This document shows positions 2,344 through 15,453 of a stretch of DNA of 64,000 nucleotides, piece by piece. Position 1 is the first letter of the stretch. Each line of letters starts with the position of its first letter. A program made the position numbers and the translations under genes. This DNA is from Labilibaculum manganireducens (lineage in GTDB: Bacteria; Bacteroidota; Bacteroidia; Bacteroidales; Marinifilaceae), in NCBI RefSeq assembly GCF_002843385.1, contig NZ_MVDE01000012.1, positions 1-64,000 of the forward strand. The letters run 5' to 3'. A model generated the notes under the pieces. It was not told the DNA's origin, searched no databases, and was given only the letters and a program-made list of their open reading frames with translations.

Positions 2344-3759
2344 ATGTCTGGAATCAAATATTTAAAATTATTTATCCCCGTGATTTTCATGGTCTTTCTT
2401 CAGACTTGTAATCAAAACCGTAAGATGGTTGGGTTGCAGATTGAAGAGAAACCAGTTGTGGAGTTAAAACATGTAAAGCTTCGTGGGAAGTTGCGTGTGG
2501 TTACGGATTACAACTCCACTAATTACTTTGTATACAAGGGGCATACAATGGGGTTTCAATATGAAATGCTGGAAGCTTTGGCTAAACACTTAGGTGTTAA
2601 ACTGGAGCTGACTGTAAACAATGATTTGGTATCTGCTTTTGCTTCTTTGGAACGAGGTGATGTGGATTTATTAGGGATGAACTTGGCAGTGACAACTGAT
2701 CGCATGGAGAAATTCAATTTTACGATTCCCCACAGTCAGTCGCCACAGGTATTAATTCAGCGGAGTCCTGTTAATGATTCTACTGGTTTCATTAGGAACA
2801 AGGCTGATTTAGGAGGTAAGCGAATTCATGTACAGGCAGGATCATCATTTCAAGAGCATTTGGTAAGACTCTCTAATGAAATGGAAATGCCTATTGATAT
2901 AGTAGTTGTTGATATGTTGGAGGAGGAGGGGCTGATATCGATGGTTGCCAGTGGTGAGATCGATTATACTATTGCAGATGAAAATGTAGCGATGGTTAAT
3001 TCTTCGTATTATCCGGGTATTGAGTTTAAGACAAGTGTGAGTTTACCTCAGAATCTGGCATGGGCCTTGCGCAAAGGCGCGAATCATTTAACTCATGATG
3101 TTAATATGTGGTTAATGGATTTTCAAAAAACGAAAGAATACAAACGAATATACCAGCGATATTTTAAGAGCAGCCGAATTGAAGAGATGATGCAAAGTGA
3201 GTATTTTACTGTAAAAAGTGGTAAGATTTCGGATTTTGATGATCTTCTTAAGGAAAAAGCGAAAATAATAGATTGGGATTGGAGATTGCTGTCAGCGTTG
3301 ATATCTCAGGAATCTAATTTTAATCCTAAGGCGCAATCATGGGTTGGAGCTTTTGGTTTAATGCAATTAATGCCCGAAACTGCTTATCGATATGATGTTG
3401 ATTCACTTTCTTCTCCTATTGAGAATGTTGATGCCGGAGTCAGGCATTTGAAATATCTAAAAGGGAAATTGGATGAGACTCTGTCTGACAAGACGGATGA
3501 GTTGAAATTTTTACTTGCATCTTATAATGTTGGATTAGGACATGTGCTGGATGCCAGACGTTTGGCTGAAAAGAATGGTAAGAATCCTGATCAATGGAAA
3601 GAAAGCGTCGACTATTATTTATTGAATAAATCGAAACCGGAGTTTTTTAATGATCCTGTAGTAAAATATGGTTATTGCCGTGGTTCGGAGCCTTATCAGT
3701 ATGTGAATAAAATTTTGGAACGCTATAGTAATTACCAAAACATTGTATTACTGAATTAG
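2344..3759 (+). CDS. MltF-like lytic transglycosylase lipoprotein
   Basis: A 471-residue lipoprotein with two domains. The signal peptide ends in a lipobox with Cys22 (LQTC). Residues about 48-280 form a periplasmic solute-binding domain (SBP_bac_3 type), and residues about 300-445 a lysozyme-like SLT domain. The likely catalytic acid is Glu323 in ALISQESNF, followed by the family motif GAFGLMQLMPETA. This domain order is that of MltF, which cleaves the MurNAc-GlcNAc bond with 1,6-anhydro ring formation and may be gated by a muropeptide or amino-acid ligand. It ends convergently with the NUDIX gene, overlapping it by 12 bp. Ligand and cellular role are inferred from the family. Confidence 0.87.
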   Translation: MSGIKYLKLFIPVIFMVFLQTCNQNRKMVGLQIEEKPVVELKHVKLRGKLRVVTDYNSTNYFVYKGHTMGFQYEMLEALAKHLGVKLELTVNNDLVSAFASLERGDVDLLGMNLAVTTDRMEKFNFTIPHSQSPQVLIQRSPVNDSTGFIRNKADLGGKRIHVQAGSSFQEHLVRLSNEMEMPIDIVVVDMLEEEGLISMVASGEIDYTIADENVAMVNSSYYPGIEFKTSVSLPQNLAWALRKGANHLTHDVNMWLMDFQKTKEYKRIYQRYFKSSRIEEMMQSEYFTVKSGKISDFDDLLKEKAKIIDWDWRLLSALISQESNFNPKAQSWVGAFGLMQLMPETAYRYDVDSLSSPIENVDAGVRHLKYLKGKLDETLSDKTDELKFLLASYNVGLGHVLDARRLAEKNGKNPDQWKESVDYYLLNKSKPEFFNDPVVKYGYCRGSEPYQYVNKILERYSNYQNIVLLN

Positions 3760-4407
3760 GCCGGCTCGAAGAAACATTTCTCTTAATTCGGATAGAATCA
3801 TTGCAGTGGCTCCCCAAATTTTGTGCTCTTTTGCTTGAAAATAAGGAGCGTGAATTTCGAATCCGTTTTTGTTAATTGTGAAATTGCTGATGTTGTTTTT
3901 TCCTAATAATAGAGAAACGGGCATTTCGATTATTTCCTCAACTTCGAATTCATTCAATTTAAATTCGGGTTTTTTTTCGCAATATCCTAATACGGGTAAA
4001 ACCATAAAATTACTGACCGGAATGTAAAGTTCTGTTAAGAAGCCTAATATTTTTATTTTTTTGCAGTCGACACCAAGCTCTTCATTTGTTTCGCGAATTG
4101 CAGTTATTGTTCTGTTTGCATCACTTTCTTCATATTTTCCTCCGGGCAAACTAATTTGGCCGCTATGGCTGTTGTTTCCTGTTGTTCTTTTCATGAAAGG
4201 AATATACAATTGACCATTGTGAGGATAAAATAATAATAAAACACTGCTATCCCTGGCAATACTAGGATCACTTGTTTTAAGGGCGTGATCCCGAATCGAC
4301 GGGGACATTAGATTTTGAGCCTCGAAACCAGGTAATCCATTATTTAGTTCATTATTTACTAAACTGGTAAATTGTTCAAGATCAAATATCGTTTCTAAAG
4401 TACTCAT
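3748..4407 (-). CDS. NUDIX hydrolase, NudL-like CoA pyrophosphatase
   Basis: A 219-residue NUDIX protein. The NUDIX box spans residues 89-113 (GGKYEESDANRT, then RETNEELGV) with the same spacing as E. coli NudL. Just upstream is the NuCoA-type motif (FMKRTTGNNSHSGQISLPGG, 71-90) that marks coenzyme A diphosphatases. The C-terminal IWGATAMILSEL also matches the family. Such enzymes hydrolyse CoA or oxidised CoA to 3',5'-ADP and 4'-phosphopantetheine with Mg2+ or Mn2+. It starts at an ATG at 4407 and is monocistronic, converging with the MltF-like gene. The family is clear; the exact substrate is inferred. Confidence 0.85.
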   Translation of the reverse strand: MSTLETIFDLEQFTSLVNNELNNGLPGFEAQNLMSPSIRDHALKTSDPSIARDSSVLLLFYPHNGQLYIPFMKRTTGNNSHSGQISLPGGKYEESDANRTITAIRETNEELGVDCKKIKILGFLTELYIPVSNFMVLPVLGYCEKKPEFKLNEFEVEEIIEMPVSLLLGKNNISNFTINKNGFEIHAPYFQAKEHKIWGATAMILSELREMFLRAGLIQ

Positions 4408-4524: not shown

Positions 4525-5907
4525 TTATTTTCTAAAGTTTTTAACAAATTGTTCTACTTCAGGAACTCCTCCCTGATAGAGAAGATATCCATTATAAGGT
4601 TCTCTTTTTGTTGTTTCATCGTTTATAGGGTTTTGCATAATGTCAATTACCTCTTGTCGTTTGGTGGTTTGGCCTAGTGTCCATCCCAATTTAATATAGG
4701 CAGCTTCGGGTAACATATTATCAAGCGGAACAATTCCCATTGAGAGTAAGTCTCGTCCTGTATCGTAAACAAACATGTGAGTGTAACCCCAAAGAGTTTG
4801 AACGGTCATGAATATATGAACCCCTTTTTCAACTGCTCTTTTTAAGGCAGGGTAAACCGGTTTGTTGACATGACCAAGGCCAGTACCAGCGATAATTATT
4901 CCCTTATAGCCACAGTCAACTAATGCATCGATAATATCGGGTTGCATATTAGGATAGTAGTACAGTATTGTAACTTTTTCTTCGAAGTAAGGAAGGATTT
5001 TTACGTTTCGATCTTTTCGTCGGTGATTGTATTGTTTTTTAATTGCTTTAACTCCTTTTCTGGTAACCGTAGCTAAAGGTGTATCGCCAAGAGTTCGGAA
5101 AGTAGATCGATAACTCGAATGCATTTTTCTCACTCTGGTTCCCCGGTGCAGAAATCCATATTCATCTGAAGTTGGGCCAAACATACAGACCATTACTTCT
5201 GCAATATCACCATGACCGGCAGCCACTGCTGAGTGCATTAAATTTAAAGCTGCATCTGATGACGGTCGGTCTGATGATCGCTGAGAGCCTACTAAAACAA
5301 TTGGAACGGGTGAATCCTGAACCATATAGGTTAAGGCGGCAGCGGTATGATGCAATGTATCTGTTCCATGAGCGATAATAATTCCATCAATCCCGTTTTC
5401 AATTTCTTTTCCAATTGCAATGGCTAGGGAAATGTATTGTTTTGGCCCCATATTTTCACTGAACACAGCAAAAACTTTTTCGGTAGATAGGTTGCATATA
5501 TCGGCGAGTTCAGGAACAGATCCATAAAGTTCTCCAGGCGAGAAGGCCGGAATTACAGCTCCTGTTCTATAATCTAAGCGGGATGCTATTGTTCCTCCGG
5601 TTCCAAACAGCTTTACAGCTGGTTGTCCGTTTGTATAAGGAAATTCTTTTTCGGGAACTTTATAATTGGCTTTTTTGTAACCGGTTTCCTTCATTTCTTT
5701 TATGGTTGTAACATTTATTCCAATGTTGTAACCTGTTATTATTTTAAGCACAATGTGTTGGTCATCATCGTTTTCTGCTCTGGGTAAAATCGTTCCGTCG
5801 AATTCGCCTCGGGTGGTAACAATATGTGTTTTGCCCCATACCCGAACACTGTATTTTTTTAGGGTCTCAAGAGCCATTCCTTTGTATCCTTGAAAAATAT
5901 CTTCCAT
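4525..5907 (-). CDS. gatD: Glu-tRNA(Gln) amidotransferase subunit D (archaeal type)
   Basis: The 460-residue glutaminase subunit of the GatDE enzyme, which turns Glu-tRNA(Gln) into Gln-tRNA(Gln) using ammonia freed from an amide donor. Residues about 15-85 are the small N-terminal GatD barrel, and 95-430 an L-asparaginase-like domain. Catalytic residues are in place: Thr106 (GTGGTIASR), Thr182 and Asp183 (AHGTDTLHH), and Lys261 (HRGTRVRKMHSS). The GatD-specific N-terminal domain and the GSQRSSDRPSSDA motif separate it from ordinary asparaginases. Its ATG overlaps the gatE stop by one base (TAATG), so the two are translationally coupled. GatD and GatE are known mainly from Archaea, so this pair in a Bacteroidota is notable. 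Confidence 0.93.
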   Translation of the reverse strand: MEDIFQGYKGMALETLKKYSVRVWGKTHIVTTRGEFDGTILPRAENDDDQHIVLKIITGYNIGINVTTIKEMKETGYKKANYKVPEKEFPYTNGQPAVKLFGTGGTIASRLDYRTGAVIPAFSPGELYGSVPELADICNLSTEKVFAVFSENMGPKQYISLAIAIGKEIENGIDGIIIAHGTDTLHHTAAALTYMVQDSPVPIVLVGSQRSSDRPSSDAALNLMHSAVAAGHGDIAEVMVCMFGPTSDEYGFLHRGTRVRKMHSSYRSTFRTLGDTPLATVTRKGVKAIKKQYNHRRKDRNVKILPYFEEKVTILYYYPNMQPDIIDALVDCGYKGIIIAGTGLGHVNKPVYPALKRAVEKGVHIFMTVQTLWGYTHMFVYDTGRDLLSMGIVPLDNMLPEAAYIKLGWTLGQTTKRQEVIDIMQNPINDETTKREPYNGYLLYQGGVPEVEQFVKNFRK

Positions 5908-7880
5908 TAGTTAAGTCGTTTGTCGATGTTTATTCTTAATTCCCTTAATTCTATATTCCCAATTGCCTGACGGTGCAATTGCCCCATGATCCAGTGACTG
6001 GCATTTTCACTGTTCTCTGATGGATGTAAGTCCTTAAACTTTTCTTCCAGAAAATCAATTGGAGCGATCAACTCGGCCAGACTTCTTTTTTTAAATTTTA
6101 AGCTGATTAACATGGAGGCAAAATCCATACTTGGGTTTTGGTAGAGAATAGGGAACAGGTATCGTGCAATGTTTGGATGTAATTCCTGATCGTGAATGAA
6201 CTTGAATAGTCCGACTAATTTTCGGTAATTGAATTCGGGATGGATGCTGTATTTTCCAATGATGTTTTTATAAGTGTGCCCAAAAAATATTGCGGTACTT
6301 TTAGGATCGAATTGAAATCTGTCAGCTATTTCTTTAATAATTGGATACAGATCTTTACTGAGAATAAAATGATGAGAATCCTTAGGTACTCCCCATTCAT
6401 TCATTTGATTAATTCGCTCACAAATATCATTTGGTAAATCTTTACCAAGATTATTGATGTATTCATCAGATAAAGGAATTGGAGCAGAGTCTGTATCCGG
6501 ATACATTCGATCGGCACCAGGCAGAACTCTCTCAAAAATTGTTGTTCCATCGGGCAACGATTTGCGTGTTTCGTTTGGGACACCATCAAAAACCATTTTA
6601 CAACGTTCTTTTATTGTTTCGATTGCTGTAGGGATATCTTCTTTCGCTCCCCAAATAACTAATTGTGCATCATTTGAATTTGATCCTAATTTGGCAAGTA
6701 TTTTACCAAAATCTTCTTTTGACAGCAATTCTTCCTCTTGCTCTGAATGTACTAAATTGGGATGTTCGATACAGGCAATTACTTTTAAACGCTGGGCAAT
6801 TTCATTGGCAAAGTTTTGACCTGGCTGGGTGAAATGCGATAGTAATCCCTTAAATTCCGGAAGGTTAACAGCAATAATCTGATGTTCTTTTTCTTTGCAT
6901 TCAATTAAGGGGGCATATGTGAAATTATAGTCGTGATAATCTAGTTCTTGTGTGAAAATGCACCAATCTTCTTTTTGAATTCGTTCGATTAATAGTTTTT
7001 TGATATTTAGCAAAGCCCATTGCCTGAAAGCCTCATTGTGTGAAAGTTCCGGAATCCATTTGTTGTGAGCAACTCCTTTAATTTCAACTCTCGATCCGCC
7101 TTTGCAGCTAACATTTACGTCTTCGCGGCCTGCTCCCATTCCTGTGCGAACCAATCCGGTGCTTCTGTTTAAAAAACGGATGTATTCTGCAGCTTCGCGC
7201 AATTCATTGGGAGTGTTTAGTTCGGGGGCAGTTACTGTTTCGATGAGTGGTGTTCCAAGACGGTCTGTTTTATAATACCGCTCATGTCCTATGTCTGAGA
7301 TCTCACGGCAAGAGTCTTCTTCGATGCTTAATTGTATCAAATTCACCTTTTTATTGCTTATTTGAATTTGTCCGTTTACACCTAAAATTGCGGTTCGCTG
7401 AAAGCCTGTTGGTATACTTCCATCCAAATATTGTTTTCGGGTAATATGTACTTCACCAACAATATTTAATTTGCACAAAAGTGAGATTCGAAGTGCAATT
7501 CCAAGAGCTTCCTGATTAATTCTAAAGGGAGGAGTATCATCAATTTCGTAAGTACAGGCTGTTTCGTTGTTGATACGATATATAATGTTTTTTCGGGTTT
7601 TAAACTCCATTAGCGCCGTGCCGTCATATCCGCCAAGTTCGCTCATTGCAGGGCGCATATGTCGTATTATTTCAGCATCGTAAGCTCCGTTTTTGTGAAA
7701 GACACCACAGGGACAGTGACAAAACAATTTTTCTTTTGTGTCAAGTTGCTGATGAACTTCCAGTCCGGACATGAAACCAATTCGACGATAATCGTCCTCG
7801 GTGGCTTGTTGGCGGGGGACATAGCCAATTTGTTCTTTGGTTTGGAGATAGTTTTTGTTGGGTGTGAATATAGTATTCAT
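5907..7880 (-). CDS. gatE: Glu-tRNA(Gln) amidotransferase subunit E (archaeal type)
   Basis: The tRNA-binding kinase/transamidase subunit of GatDE. The GatB/GatE signature GLEVHQQLDTKEKLFCHCPC lies near the N-terminus, and GMGAGREDVNVSCKGGSRV follows in the kinase core. A GatE-specific AspRS-like insertion (about residues 270-430, with VIWGAKEDIPTAI and ERVLPGADRMYPDTDSAP) rules out bacterial GatB, which is about 475 residues. The C-terminus has the YqeY-like helical tail. The ATG at 7880 (657 residues) is preferred over an upstream TTG at 7904. It is first in a two-gene operon with gatD. Nothing looks broken, so the enzyme is probably active. Confidence 0.93.
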   Translation of the reverse strand: MNTIFTPNKNYLQTKEQIGYVPRQQATEDDYRRIGFMSGLEVHQQLDTKEKLFCHCPCGVFHKNGAYDAEIIRHMRPAMSELGGYDGTALMEFKTRKNIIYRINNETACTYEIDDTPPFRINQEALGIALRISLLCKLNIVGEVHITRKQYLDGSIPTGFQRTAILGVNGQIQISNKKVNLIQLSIEEDSCREISDIGHERYYKTDRLGTPLIETVTAPELNTPNELREAAEYIRFLNRSTGLVRTGMGAGREDVNVSCKGGSRVEIKGVAHNKWIPELSHNEAFRQWALLNIKKLLIERIQKEDWCIFTQELDYHDYNFTYAPLIECKEKEHQIIAVNLPEFKGLLSHFTQPGQNFANEIAQRLKVIACIEHPNLVHSEQEEELLSKEDFGKILAKLGSNSNDAQLVIWGAKEDIPTAIETIKERCKMVFDGVPNETRKSLPDGTTIFERVLPGADRMYPDTDSAPIPLSDEYINNLGKDLPNDICERINQMNEWGVPKDSHHFILSKDLYPIIKEIADRFQFDPKSTAIFFGHTYKNIIGKYSIHPEFNYRKLVGLFKFIHDQELHPNIARYLFPILYQNPSMDFASMLISLKFKKRSLAELIAPIDFLEEKFKDLHPSENSENASHWIMGQLHRQAIGNIELRELRINIDKRLN

Positions 7881-7982
7881 TGGGTTAGTTTTTAGTAACC
7901 CCAAAAAATACTAATAATCTGTTGGTTAAGAAATGATTTAATTCAGGTTTGCCCCCTGTTTTAATGAATTTTGATTTTGAAA

Positions 7983-8456
7983 TTAGGGTGTAAACGGCAA
8001 TCTGATTTTATAGCCTTTACTCTCAATATCTGCTTTTATTTTTGCTCCAATTGCTTGTCCCCACGACATTCCGGCCTGCATACTTTCAGTGGTGATTTTA
8101 GGTAATTTTTGGGCGATTCTTTTTCCGGCAACCGATTCGTAAAAATCAATCATGGCTAATACATCCTCGTGAGAAAGATTCTGCCTGTAGATTGGAAGAA
8201 GCATTTTGATTAAATCATTAACTGAAGTATTCACGAATTCAACTTCAGCTTTGTCCCAATATTCAGTTGGAATATTTGATTCCTGACTTCGTAGTTGAAT
8301 AATCATCGCTTTAATTGATTCCTGATAGCTGGCTTGTGATCCGTTTATCTGAAACAGATATTTTAAATCTTTTTCGTACGTGTTGGTTTCTTGCCCTGAA
8401 GAAGCGAATGTAGATGTCGAAAGGGTAAGAAATAAAAACAATACTATATTTTTCAT
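7983..8456 (-). CDS. DUF2059 domain secreted protein
   Basis: A 157-residue exported protein with a signal peptide (MKNIVLFLFLTLSTSTFASS). Its helical body carries the DUF2059 pattern, LLPIYRQNLSHEDVLAMIDF followed by YESVAGKRIAQKLP and a closing MQAGMSWGQAIGAKI. The biochemical function of the family is unknown. It is the last gene of a minus-strand operon, 26 bp after the class D beta-lactamase, which suggests a periplasmic or envelope role. Confidence 0.8.
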   Translation of the reverse strand: MKNIVLFLFLTLSTSTFASSGQETNTYEKDLKYLFQINGSQASYQESIKAMIIQLRSQESNIPTEYWDKAEVEFVNTSVNDLIKMLLPIYRQNLSHEDVLAMIDFYESVAGKRIAQKLPKITTESMQAGMSWGQAIGAKIKADIESKGYKIRLPFTP

Positions 8457-8482: not shown

Positions 8483-9283
8483 TTATTTAGTTAATTGAAG
8501 ATGATCAAGTATTTTGGAAACTATGATTTGCCTTTTAGTAGCATCATCAGAATTTTTAATATCGATATTAATTGCGAAAAAATATACATTCTCTCCTTTC
8601 TCAAGATAGCCAACATACCATCCAATTTGCTTGTTTATTCGAGCAACCCATCCTGTTTTTGCTCTGATTGTATAATCAGGAGTCTGTTCAATAATCATTA
8701 TTTTTTTCACAATTTCTTGATTTTTTTGCGAAAATGGAAGTTGGTTAAAATATAATTTTTGCAAAAAATCAATTTGTTGGTTTGGGCTGATTCTAATGTC
8801 TCCGCTCAACCAGAAAACATCGATTCCTCCGTTTATATTTTTGTTGCCGTAATCTGATGCCTCTACCCAATGTTTCATTCTTTCTTGGCCAATTCTTCTT
8901 GCCAGCTCCTGATAAGCCCAAACAGCAGAATATTTTAATCCGCTTTCCAGATTTTGATCCCTATTCCATTCGTTATATCCACGATCGATACTATCCCACT
9001 TAATGATTTCTTTTTCATCCTGAATCACTCCGGTTTCCAAAGCAATCATCGAATTAATTATTTTGAATGTGGAAGCCGGCAAAAATGCTGAATCTAATCG
9101 TTTCTCATTAAAACTTAATCCGGCATCATTTTTTAAATCATAAATGGTAAAACAGCCATTGATTTTTTCTGATTTGAAAATACCTTCTAAATCGGAAGAA
9201 GAGTAATTGTTTAAAATTGAATTTGATTGTGGTGAACAAGCAAAAAGGATAAACAATAAAAAAAATGAAAGTAAGGTTTTCAT
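8483..9283 (-). CDS. Class D (OXA-type) beta-lactamase, lipoprotein
   Basis: A 266-residue serine beta-lactamase. All class D motifs are present: Ser71-x-x-Lys74 (PASTFK), Ser119-Ala-Val121 (YSAVW), Tyr145-Gly-Asn147 (DYGN), Trp158 (FWLSG) and Lys209-Thr-Gly211 (AKTGW). The signal peptide ends in a lipobox (LFAC, Cys16), so it is probably membrane-anchored. Class D enzymes acylate on Ser, with a carboxylated Lys as general base. It lies 6 bp after the CPBP protease gene and 26 bp before the DUF2059 gene, in one operon and without mobile-element signatures, so it is probably an intrinsic gene. The substrate range cannot be judged from sequence. A BlaR-type sensor domain is unlikely at this length. 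Confidence 0.92.
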   Translation of the reverse strand: MKTLLSFFLLFILFACSPQSNSILNNYSSSDLEGIFKSEKINGCFTIYDLKNDAGLSFNEKRLDSAFLPASTFKIINSMIALETGVIQDEKEIIKWDSIDRGYNEWNRDQNLESGLKYSAVWAYQELARRIGQERMKHWVEASDYGNKNINGGIDVFWLSGDIRISPNQQIDFLQKLYFNQLPFSQKNQEIVKKIMIIEQTPDYTIRAKTGWVARINKQIGWYVGYLEKGENVYFFAINIDIKNSDDATKRQIIVSKILDHLQLTK

Positions 9284-11997: not shown

Positions 11998-14900
11998 ATG
12001 GAATCAAATCCAGGTAAAGAGCAGGGAATCAATAAGATTATAGCTGAAAATATTGAGCGTTTAAAAGAACTTTCCGCAATTAATCAAACAACAGGTATTA
12101 TTAAGGAAGGAAAATCCATTGAGGATACTTTACAGCAAATCTGCTTTATTCTTCCTAAAGCATGGCAATATCCGGAGTTCACGGTTGCCCGTATTGTATT
12201 TGACGGACAAGAATACCTCAGCCCCGGATTTCGTCTCTCGCAATGGACACTAACACAGGAATTTTTAACAATCAATAATCGAAGCGGACGAATTGAGGTT
12301 TGTTATGTGAAAAAATTTCCGCAACAAGATGAAGGGCCTTTTTTGAAAGAAGAAAGGCATTTGATTGAAAATATTGGGAATATTATTGTTGGTTATATCA
12401 ATAGTGAAACGGGAAAAGAACTGCTCAGCCAAAAAAGGAAAGTTGACCCTAAAAAGAAGGAAATAATAGGCCCCTATGTTCCGGTTACGAATCGTAAATT
12501 ATTACAGGATTTCTTAAATAAAAACAACGCCGACCGGGATATTTATCATGATTTAATGCCCTTTAAGGTAAAGGAAATATTGTTGGTTGCGAATTTATAC
12601 GATGCTTATTGTATTGAACGCGAAGGACGTTTTTCAGAGCAAATCTCCAGTGAATATCATCAGCTGAATCTAACATCAATGCCCCGGGTTACAGGAGTTT
12701 CAAATTTGGAAGAAGCCATGGAGCAATTGCACTCCAGACATTTTGATATGATTATATTAATGGTTGGAGTAGATAAAAAAACGCCAATCGTTTTAAGTGA
12801 ACGAATTAAAAAGGAATTTCCCTATATATCTATTTTTTTATTGCTGAATAATGATGCCGATATCGCTTTGTTCGAAGAACAACGGACAGAGCTGAAAAGT
12901 GTAGATAAAATATTTGTGTGGAATGGCGAATCGCAGGTTTTCTTTGCAATGATTAAGAGTTTGGAAGATAAGGTGAATGTTGAAAATGATACCAAGATTG
13001 GATTGGCCCGGGTAATTTTACTGGTTGAAGATTCGGCGAAATATTATTCCAGATACATGCCAATGCTTTATCAGAGTGTTTTGGCGCAAACCCAGCGAAT
13101 AATCAATGACGTAAGTACCGATGCTCAGTATAAGATTCTTCGTTTACGGGCGCGACCTAAAATATTACTGGCCTCGAATTACGAAGAGGCAATGGATATT
13201 TATTATCGGTTTAGGGAGTATTTGTTGTGCTTAATTTCGGATGTGAAGTTTAAAAAAGATGGAATATTCTTAGATGATGCCGGAATTCGTTTGGTAAAAG
13301 AAATTAAAGAAGAATACCCAAATCTACCGGTTATATTGCAATCGTCTGATGTTTCCAATGCCAGCCATGCTTTTAAGCTGAAGGCTAGTTTTATCGATAA
13401 AAACTCTGAAACACTTAGAGGGGATATTCGTTTGTTTATTCGTCAGTTTCTGGGCTTTGGCGATTTTGTGTATAAAGATGCCATGGGCAATGAAATTGCT
13501 ACGGCAAAATCATTAAAAGAGTTTGAGGATTATTTGTACCATATTCCGGGCGAATCTTTGGTTTATCATGCCAAAAAGAATCATTTTTCTTTATGGCTGA
13601 TGGCTCGTGGAGAGATTCGGGTTGCTAAAATGATTGCACCCTATCATATTACAGATTTTAAATCGGCTGAAGATGTCCGGGATTATTTAATTAATGTAAT
13701 TCAGAATTACCGGAACGAAAAAAATAAGGGAAAGGTTGTAGAGTTCAATGCCGATTTTGCTCTTAATGCCAATAATATAGTCACTTTGTCTACTGGTTCG
13801 TTAGGTGGAAAAGGGCGGGGATTGGCTTTCATCAACTCCATGCTTTTTAATCTGAATTTGAGCCGTTTTGTTCCAGGAATAAATATAAAGGCGCCTATGA
13901 CTGCAGTAATTGGTGTTGATGAATACGAATCATTCTTAGATCGAAATAACCTTTTAGACCGAATTAAGGATTTGGATGATTTTGAGCAAATTCAGTGGCT
14001 GTTTAGGGATGCAGAATTAACGCATCGTCTCGTTCAAAAAATAAGAATCATGCTAATGAATTTTGAGAAGCCACTGGCGATCCGATCTTCCGGATTGTTT
14101 GAAGACTCATTACTTCAGCCGGTAGCAGGGGTTTTTCAAACCTACCTTGTGCCCAATAATCATCCCGATTTAGATATTCGGGTTAAGCAGGTAACCGACG
14201 CTGTAAAATTAGTTTATGCATCCATTTTTTCCAACGATGCAAGATTGAATGTTTCTGCCATGAATTATAAAATAGAGGAAGAAAAAATGGCTGTGGTTAT
14301 TCAGGAAGTAGTAGGAAACCAGTACGGATCAGCTTTTTATCCTCACATTTCGGGCGTAGCTCAATCGTACAATTATTATCCTTTTGGGCACATGAAACCC
14401 GAAGAAGGATACGCCGTGATAGGTGTTGGTTTGGGTAAATATGTTGTAGATGGCGAAAAGGCATTTCGCTTTTCTCCTGTTTTCCCAACTATTGAGAATA
14501 ACAGTGCGAAAGATCAATTTAAAAATTCGCAGGTAGAATTTTATGCTGTTGACCTCAACAAAAAAGATTTGGATCTTATGGAGGGTGATACGGCAGGATT
14601 AATTCGTTTGGATATTGATGAAGCAGAAGAACATGGTAATTTAGTGCATTGTGCTTCTGTTTATAATTCCATGAGTGATACAATTAGTCCTGGTTTGGAT
14701 GTTATGGGACCAAGAATCATCAATTTCGCCAATATTTTAAAATACAATTATATTCCACTGGCAAAAACAATTGAACTTGTTTTGGATATCATAAAAGAAG
14801 CGATGGGTTCACCGATTGAGATAGAGTTTGCCGTCGATTTAACGAAAGATAAAGAAGGGAAGGCTTCGTTTTATCTTCTGCAGATAAAACCTTTGGTTGG

Positions 14901-15453
14901 TAATATAGATGATTACCATATTGATTTGAATGAAATTGACAGAAGCAAGCTTTTGATGATTTCTGAAATGAGTATGGGAAACGGATTGGTAGATGATATT
15001 GTTGATGTTGTTTATGTTGTGCCCGAATTATTCAAAAAAGATTTGACTCTTGAGATTGCGGATACCATCTCAAAAATTAATCTTGAAATGAGAGAAAAAA
15101 ATAAACGTTTTGTATTGATTGGTCCGGGGCGTTGGGGCACCCGCGACCGATGGATTGGAATTCCTGTAAAATGGAACGACATCTCCTTCTCGAAATTAAT
15201 TGTGGAGACAAGCTTTGAGGATTATCCTTTGGAAGCATCATCCGGATCTCACTTTTTTCACAATGTAACATCAATGAATATTGGCTACAGCTCCATTCAC
15301 CACCATTCAGAAACATCCTTTATCGAATATCAGTTACTAAAAAAGCAGAAATTAATTGGGGAGTATGGCGCCGTTCGTCACGTTCAGTTTAAAAAACCAT
15401 TAAGTATTAAATTGGATGGTAAAAAACGACTGGCTGTTGTGAGTTGGGAATGA
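11998..15453 (+). CDS. GAF-receiver-PEP synthase-like ATP-binding protein
   Basis: A 1151-residue soluble protein. Residues about 15-140 look like a GAF domain (ERLKELSAIN... EERHLIENI). Residues 192-325 form a receiver-like fold with no clear phospho-acceptor Asp. Residues 338-490 form a second receiver with an acidic pair (VEDSAKYY, Glu345-Asp346), a candidate Asp415 (LISDVKF) and Lys468. Residues about 595-965 are the PEP synthase/PPDK ATP-grasp domain (STGSLGGKGRGLAF; KPLAIRSSGLFEDS; QPVAGVFQTYL). The phosphohistidine swivelling domain and PEP-binding TIM barrel of real PEP synthase are absent. A conserved C-terminal block (LIGPGRWGTRDRWIGIPVKW) replaces them. It may be a sensor-controlled phosphotransferase; the reaction is unknown. 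Confidence 0.8.
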   Translation: MESNPGKEQGINKIIAENIERLKELSAINQTTGIIKEGKSIEDTLQQICFILPKAWQYPEFTVARIVFDGQEYLSPGFRLSQWTLTQEFLTINNRSGRIEVCYVKKFPQQDEGPFLKEERHLIENIGNIIVGYINSETGKELLSQKRKVDPKKKEIIGPYVPVTNRKLLQDFLNKNNADRDIYHDLMPFKVKEILLVANLYDAYCIEREGRFSEQISSEYHQLNLTSMPRVTGVSNLEEAMEQLHSRHFDMIILMVGVDKKTPIVLSERIKKEFPYISIFLLLNNDADIALFEEQRTELKSVDKIFVWNGESQVFFAMIKSLEDKVNVENDTKIGLARVILLVEDSAKYYSRYMPMLYQSVLAQTQRIINDVSTDAQYKILRLRARPKILLASNYEEAMDIYYRFREYLLCLISDVKFKKDGIFLDDAGIRLVKEIKEEYPNLPVILQSSDVSNASHAFKLKASFIDKNSETLRGDIRLFIRQFLGFGDFVYKDAMGNEIATAKSLKEFEDYLYHIPGESLVYHAKKNHFSLWLMARGEIRVAKMIAPYHITDFKSAEDVRDYLINVIQNYRNEKNKGKVVEFNADFALNANNIVTLSTGSLGGKGRGLAFINSMLFNLNLSRFVPGINIKAPMTAVIGVDEYESFLDRNNLLDRIKDLDDFEQIQWLFRDAELTHRLVQKIRIMLMNFEKPLAIRSSGLFEDSLLQPVAGVFQTYLVPNNHPDLDIRVKQVTDAVKLVYASIFSNDARLNVSAMNYKIEEEKMAVVIQEVVGNQYGSAFYPHISGVAQSYNYYPFGHMKPEEGYAVIGVGLGKYVVDGEKAFRFSPVFPTIENNSAKDQFKNSQVEFYAVDLNKKDLDLMEGDTAGLIRLDIDEAEEHGNLVHCASVYNSMSDTISPGLDVMGPRIINFANILKYNYIPLAKTIELVLDIIKEAMGSPIEIEFAVDLTKDKEGKASFYLLQIKPLVGNIDDYHIDLNEIDRSKLLMISEMSMGNGLVDDIVDVVYVVPELFKKDLTLEIADTISKINLEMREKNKRFVLIGPGRWGTRDRWIGIPVKWNDISFSKLIVETSFEDYPLEASSGSHFFHNVTSMNIGYSSIHHHSETSFIEYQLLKKQKLIGEYGAVRHVQFKKPLSIKLDGKKRLAVVSWE

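Follow-up and report, generated by a model that had tools for sequence, protein, structure and literature searches.

The Glu-tRNA(Gln) amidotransferase GatDE is assigned to archaea only in one review (PMC8007984), and reviews use its exclusively archaeal occurrence in discussing the last universal ancestor and the archaeal lack of glutaminyl-tRNA synthetase (GlnRS). According to a review, the archaeal enzyme contacts the D-loop and the A1:U72 base pair of tRNA-Gln. In a 2014 survey (PMC3927822), the GlnRS of Bacteroidetes (except S. ruber) was judged functional from the absence of gatCAB, and the indirect route to Gln-tRNA(Gln) was inferred to be defunct in most of the examined Bacteroidetes; its text does not contain the word GatDE. 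A search of the literature outside subscription, mostly at the level of listings, for GatDE in combination with Bacteroidetes, Bacteroidales or Bacteroidota returned no description of a bacterial GatDE. The present analysis concerns a gatE-gatD pair in a stretch of 64,000 nucleotides from Labilibaculum manganireducens (contig NZ_MVDE01000012.1, positions 1 to 64,000), hereafter referred to as the window. The pair belongs to a genuine bacterial branch of this supposedly archaeal family, a branch that is intact, widespread, kept beside GlnRS and dispensable. Curated NCBI models already assign the names GatD and GatE to such proteins, so that the sequences carry a label even where the case goes undiscussed.

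The gatE and gatD genes

The gene gatE encodes the kinase/transamidase subunit of Glu-tRNA(Gln) amidotransferase (TIGR00134) and is located on the minus strand at positions 5907..7904, with a TTG start codon at 7904 (665 amino acids) or, alternatively, the in-frame ATG at 7880 preferred in the preliminary description (657 amino acids). It is followed on the same strand by gatD (4525..5907; 460 amino acids; TIGR02153), which encodes the asparaginase-like subunit, predicted to release ammonia from glutamine or asparagine. As noted in the preliminary description of the window, the two genes are coupled by a TAATG, in which the stop codon of gatE and the start codon of gatD have one base in common. 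The same description had reported both subunits as intact in a Bacteroidota chromosome, which is borne out by full-length matches above the family cut-offs. GatD scored 485 bits against TIGR02153 (gatD_arch, cut-off 324), also exceeded the cut-off of NF003217 and contains the Pfam domains GatD_N, Asparaginase and Asparaginase_C. Compared with 111 full-length GatD proteins of other loci, its identity was 57-99%, and at least 66% in 102 of these cases. GatE scored 394 bits against TIGR00134 (gatE_arch, cut-off 319.55) and 446.5 bits against a second GatE model, NF003107, which is about 10 bits below the cut-off of 456; the best two GatB models yielded 116 and 112 bits against cut-offs of 338 and 314.8, respectively.

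Although the GatB_N model has 277 positions, its match in GatE extends over 438 residues, which an insertion would fit. The Pfam model of the tail gave 12 bits, below its cut-off of 27. A profile built from 52 bacterial GatE sequences covers residues 8-625 of the 633 residues of Pyrococcus abyssi GatE (1zq1_C), so that both the insertion and the tail are present despite the weak Pfam score of the latter. The span and the end-to-end profile match are thus consistent with the GatE-specific insertion proposed earlier, which we take to be AspRS-like. By sequence, the best relatives of solved structure were two archaeal GatDE structures, those of Methanothermobacter (2d6f) and P. abyssi (1zq1).

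The GatD residues Thr106, Thr182, Asp183 and Lys261, previously named as catalytic, are present as claimed and invariant in all 115 rows of an alignment comprising 112 locus GatD proteins, the window protein and two archaeal sequences (two partial GatD sequences were left out). The GatE residues E49, H51, E195, E196 and E222, of a type presumed from GatB structures to bind magnesium and ATP, are invariant in all 123 aligned rows (120 loci, the window and two archaea; the short Natrinema piece L205 was left out), and the GatE tail is poorly conserved. The alignment rows are partly dependent, as locus L060 is the window's own genome and loci L191-L200 overlap near kin among L061-L140. It is confirmed that the window pair consists of intact, full-length members of the GatDE family in which all tested catalytic residues are kept. 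The ratio of non-synonymous to synonymous substitution rates (dN/dS) was 0.013-0.035 for gatD in all four pairs compared, and 0.040 and 0.066 for gatE in the two of four pairs with a finite dS; for comparison, it was 0.034-0.063 for glutamyl-tRNA synthetase (GluRS) in all six pairs. Many dS values exceeded 1.4, hence these ratios are rough. In carriers, both gatD and gatE are under strong purifying selection.

Distribution and coexistence with GlnRS

GatE above the curated cut-off was found in 122 of the 295 genomes sampled from the order (173 had none) and in 30 of the 395 genomes sampled from the phylum; besides the window's own genome, the latter comprise 29 genomes from other classes of the same phylum. 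Among relatives from the genus and family, 10 of 23 were positive (five of eight in the genus, five of 15 in other genera of the family), as were four of 14 control genomes, a set including four archaea, which may or may not be the same four. Contigs from GTDB contained 279 stretches encoding a relative, from which 80 loci were retained. The GatDE pair is neither strain-specific nor recent, and it is no isolated oddity; that it is common in Bacteroidota is one half of what the preliminary description had named as counting against its reading.

GlnRS above the cut-off was present in 266 of the 295 order genomes, namely 111 of the 122 GatE-positive and 155 of the 173 GatE-negative ones (Fisher p 0.84; for a few genomes close to the cut-off, the status was decided by E-value to match the total tally). 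In the other classes, the corresponding figures were 26 of 29 GatE-positive genomes and 20 of the 22 GatE-negative genomes compared. Since GlnRS is equally frequent with and without GatE, GatDE does not stand in for it; a replacement of lost GlnRS by GatDE is ruled out as a rule by the 111 positive genomes that have both.

Eleven of the 122 GatE-positive order genomes had no GlnRS above the cut-off, one of them (G615) with a partial match. In another (G491), the contig carrying the GlnRS flank of a congener stops about 1 kb short, and the missing gene is likely an assembly gap, yet this neighbourhood is split in a third congener. Genome G451 (loci L297 and L308) has both GatD and GatE, whereas GlnRS was not found in its bin, which is 96% complete, nor in the 6 kb examined beside the flank that adjoins GlnRS in a congener; it is possible that G451 is a GatDE-dependent bacterium without GlnRS. 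Two further GatE-positive genomes (G353 and G326), each 99% complete, had no GlnRS above the cut-off and a second, GatB-like match; these probably possess both amidotransferases and no GlnRS.

Glutaminyl-tRNA formation in the host genome

The host is Labilibaculum-like (Marinifilaceae), with a window GatE 97% identical to that of Labilibaculum euxinus, and its genome (5.3 Mb, 97 contigs) is rated 100% complete. Two PF00749 genes are present as convergent neighbours, one encoding GlnRS (776 bits against TIGR00440, cut-off 425.8) and the other a bacterial-type GluRS (497 bits against TIGR00464, cut-off 289.95). The GlnRS retains the HIGH and MSK motifs. GatB was not found, as PF02637 gave no match in the genome, which is a weak test because this model also misses the divergent tail of the window GatE. 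TIGR00134, which detects GatB elsewhere, matched GatE alone and yielded no second match; a GatB model was not run on the genome. The genome search proposed in the preliminary description thus returned one copy each of glnS and gltX and no GatB, with GatA and GatC not searched. That description had also left a choice between a non-discriminating GluRS and a partly redundant route to Gln-tRNA. With a complete GlnRS and a single GluRS in the genome, the redundant route is the likelier of the two.

The GluRS residue at Thermus thermophilus position 358 was considered as a marker of discrimination and rejected as uninformative, being Arg in all 37 aligned rows regardless of GatE or GlnRS (15 GatE-positive rows, 21 GatE-negative rows and one undetermined, from the 63% complete genome G005), including G032 and G037, which have no GlnRS above the cut-off. 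Only one GluRS column was invariant in the GatE-positive rows and rare in the GatE-negative rows (N versus mostly G), which probably reflects kinship.

The genome contains 72 tRNA gene matches, most but not all of which were scanned with ARAGORN; the scanned genes include two identical tRNA-Gln (UUG) and two tRNA-Glu, and a similarity search recovered the same two tRNA-Gln. Searching 60 genomes by similarity to the tRNA-Gln of the window genome, a procedure that favours like sequences, 45 distinct tRNA-Gln genes were obtained from 41 genomes. The first base pair is U1:A72 in all 45, and no tRNA-Gln of the archaeal A1:U72 type was found among them in carriers. Bacterial GatDE, then, would either read U1:A72 or not act on tRNA-Gln. 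A1:U72 characterizes the substrate of the archaeal enzyme and is not a defining feature of the GatDE protein family. One paper reports that the tails of GatDE and GatCAB are adapted to the small tRNA-Gln D-loop; the D-loops of the genes found here look short by eye.

The discriminator base is A73 in 40 of the 45 Bacteroidota tRNA-Gln genes (loci L249-L291), comprising 25 of 28 GatE-positive and 15 of 17 GatE-negative cases. A review gives A73 as the archaeal and G73 as the bacterial state of tRNA-Gln. With similar proportions in both groups, A73 is not tied to GatE.

Gene order and phylogeny

In 114 of 121 GatE loci, a same-strand GatD gene lies downstream (two of these GatD matches are partial), in 101 of them within about 150 bases; the seven GatE loci without GatD include the Natrinema piece mentioned above. 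In the window, the downstream neighbour on the same strand encodes a NUDIX hydrolase (3748..4407, minus; PF00293) that is weakly CoA pyrophosphatase-like, followed by a convergent gene for an MltF-like lytic transglycosylase (2344..3759, plus; 305.5 bits against NF008112, below the cut-off of 354); the former was used as a synteny marker and the latter as a synteny marker only. Clustering by sequence showed that GatD is followed by a same-strand NUDIX homologue in 18 of 52 representative loci, and that an MltF-like homologue lies beyond it in 14 of the 52. This order, common to part of the loci, indicates that part of the distribution is due to descent. A functional gene neighbourhood did not emerge, as besides GatD no neighbour recurred in more than 18 of the 52 loci (antisense frames set aside). 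The upstream neighbour encodes a DUF2059 protein (7983..8456, minus; PF09832) and borders the site deleted in two congeners on the upstream side.

A GatD tree was computed from 61 rows (58 of the 112 sufficiently long locus GatD proteins, the window and two archaea). All 59 bacterial rows are found on one side of a branch with 100/100 support that separates them from the two archaeal GatD proteins, and the window groups with Labilibaculum and Marinifilum. Bacteroidales, together with L059, L126 (titled Ignavibacteria) and L135 (titled Chlorobiota), are separated from the other classes with 94/93 support, which is below the program's mark for firm support. The phylogeny suggested in the preliminary description as a check was hence obtained for GatD and places the bacterial sequences together; with only two archaeal rows on very long branches, it is compatible with a transfer from archaea as well as with ancient presence and cannot separate an ancestral from a transferred GatDE.

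Locus L059 originates from a genome of another class (G195), its GatD and GatE being 79% and 60% identical to those of the window, respectively, and its GatD is placed inside the Bacteroidales clade; either the locus was transferred between members of the phylum or its contig was mis-binned.

A mobile origin was considered and rejected. Viral contigs, searched with six peptide patterns, yielded no relative, and the 11 plasmid records with relatives gave partial matches, none reaching 80% query coverage. The best of these was a 41% identical piece on an archaeal (Natrinema) plasmid; the other ten were 24-30% identical, six of them being annotated as gatB. The Natrinema piece (L205) is GatE-like, has no listed gene and lies on the haloarchaeal megaplasmid CP031304.1; its 41% identity extends over query residues 35-308.

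Elsewhere in the window, a class D beta-lactamase (8483-9283; 298 bits against the general class D cut-off of 250) adjoins an Rce1-like protein, and positions 11998-15453 encode a protein of 1151 amino acids with a PPDK_N ATP-binding domain, a DUF5752 match and a weak response-regulator match.

Loss of gatDE in two congeners

Two congeners (G003 and G004) yielded no GatE match. Between the DUF2059 and NUDIX genes, G003 retains fragments, distributed over two frames, of the part of gatD that begins at about residue 320; G004, a single-contig genome, retains a stretch matching GatE residues 1-48 as well as pieces of the end of gatD. As the remnants differ between the two genomes, the deletions, located at the same site, look separate; gatDE hence belonged to the shared gene stock of the genus, and genomes with GlnRS can lose it. 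Both congeners possess an adjacent pair of PF00749 genes whose sizes are those of GlnRS and GluRS, an arrangement also seen in the window genome, and their GluRS proteins are 91% and 93.5% identical to that of the window genome. Beside GlnRS, gatDE is dispensable. The loss argues that the GluRS makes little Glu-tRNA(Gln), or that what is made is tolerated.

Proposed function and alternatives

The explanation we favour, and consider probable, is that of a long-resident Bacteroidota GatDE under purifying selection that would amidate Glu-tRNA(Gln) as a backup or clean-up route. We infer its activity, substrate and role from the sequences, starting from the intact genes and residues, the co-residence with GlnRS and GluRS, the purifying selection and the natural loss in congeners. 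Following the mechanism described for the family, GatD would free ammonia from glutamine or asparagine, and GatE would activate the glutamate on Glu-tRNA(Gln) with ATP and subsequently amidate it to glutamine. Because GlnRS already supplies Gln-tRNA(Gln), GatDE would constitute a second, dispensable route, acting on a tRNA-Gln with the bacterial U1:A72 pair and not the archaeal A1:U72. Its most likely task would be to mend putative Glu-tRNA(Gln) misacylated by the single GluRS, or to supply Gln-tRNA(Gln) when GlnRS or free glutamine is limiting.

Three observations weigh against this explanation. The loss in congeners means that gatDE is not essential, and with U1:A72 in place of the archaeal A1:U72 the substrate could have changed. 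Furthermore, the bacterial rows are nearly invariant at 54 GatE positions whose residue is shared by neither archaeal row (two of these positions are gaps in P. abyssi); these would fit a long separate history, and a changed specificity could explain them as well.

In a full parallel route, a non-discriminating GluRS would feed GatDE, and GlnRS as well as GluRS together with GatDE would produce large amounts of Gln-tRNA(Gln). Such a route would be served by the intact GatDE and the one GluRS present, and is compatible with Arg358, since the two genomes without GlnRS above the cut-off (G037 and G032) also have Arg at this position. It is nevertheless unlikely, given that the two congeners that lost gatDE kept their closely similar GluRS and a tRNA-Gln of the same type; after such a loss, a GluRS charging tRNA-Gln in quantity would harm translation unless it had changed at a few sites.

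The old task being unnecessary beside GlnRS, bacterial GatDE might have kept its chemistry and turned to a substrate other than tRNA-Gln, with which U1:A72, the bacteria-specific GatE positions and the poorly conserved tail would agree. Such a change of function is decidedly unlikely in view of the retained catalytic residues and end-to-end architecture and of a neighbourhood that offers no other substrate or partner, its most recurrent members (NUDIX and MltF-like) occurring in a minority of loci; the reported fit of GatDE and GatCAB tails to a small tRNA-Gln D-loop, here short by eye only, points in the same direction. Two losses within the genus, of which traces can still be seen, and the lack of a GatE above the cut-off in the majority of the order genomes would suit a decaying relic that has no use today; this reading is very unlikely, as dN/dS is far below 1 in carriers and both subunits are intact with invariant catalytic residues. 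A recent lateral gain from an archaeon by the strain or genus, which would suit the reviews describing the family as archaeal only, is already contradicted and practically untenable, because GatE is found in many families of the order as well as in further classes, the window GatD stands with those of Labilibaculum and Marinifilum in a tree that keeps all bacterial rows together, and the gene order is common to part of the distant Bacteroidales loci.

Comparison with known systems

The rule by which GatDE counts as an archaeal signature needs revision. It is possible, and put forward tentatively, that a large part of the order and other classes of Bacteroidota run two complete routes to Gln-tRNA(Gln), namely GlnRS and a GatDE reading U1:A72. 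If this is true, GatDE would be no archaeal signature, GlnRS and GatDE would be compatible in one cell, the statement that Bacteroidetes without GatCAB have no indirect route would fail, and some genomes (e.g., G451) may rely on GatDE without GlnRS. The genus Labilibaculum is cultivable and comprises species with and without GatDE, both with GlnRS, which allows a direct comparison of the role of the amidotransferase beside GlnRS; roles that such a comparison could tell apart are proofreading, nitrogen economy and cover for a blocked GlnRS.

The window pair resembles archaeal GatDE (2d6f and 1zq1) in having the same two subunits, the same tested catalytic residues and the same full-length architecture. 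It differs in residing in a bacterium with GlnRS, in facing a tRNA-Gln with U1:A72 instead of A1:U72 and in the 54 near-invariant bacterial GatE positions that neither archaeal row shares. With bacterial GatCAB it would share the reaction, and GatE is homologous to GatB, whereas the window GatE is far below the GatB cut-offs and no GatB was found in the host genome with the two models applied; in other genomes (e.g., G326, G353 and G505), GatB-like matches occur alongside GatE. A direct synthetase and an amidotransferase are likewise found side by side in the Asn-tRNA(Asn) routes of Deinococcus, Thermus and Bdellovibrio, as described in PMC4206432, whereas the doubled route proposed here would serve Gln-tRNA(Gln) and not Asn-tRNA(Asn).

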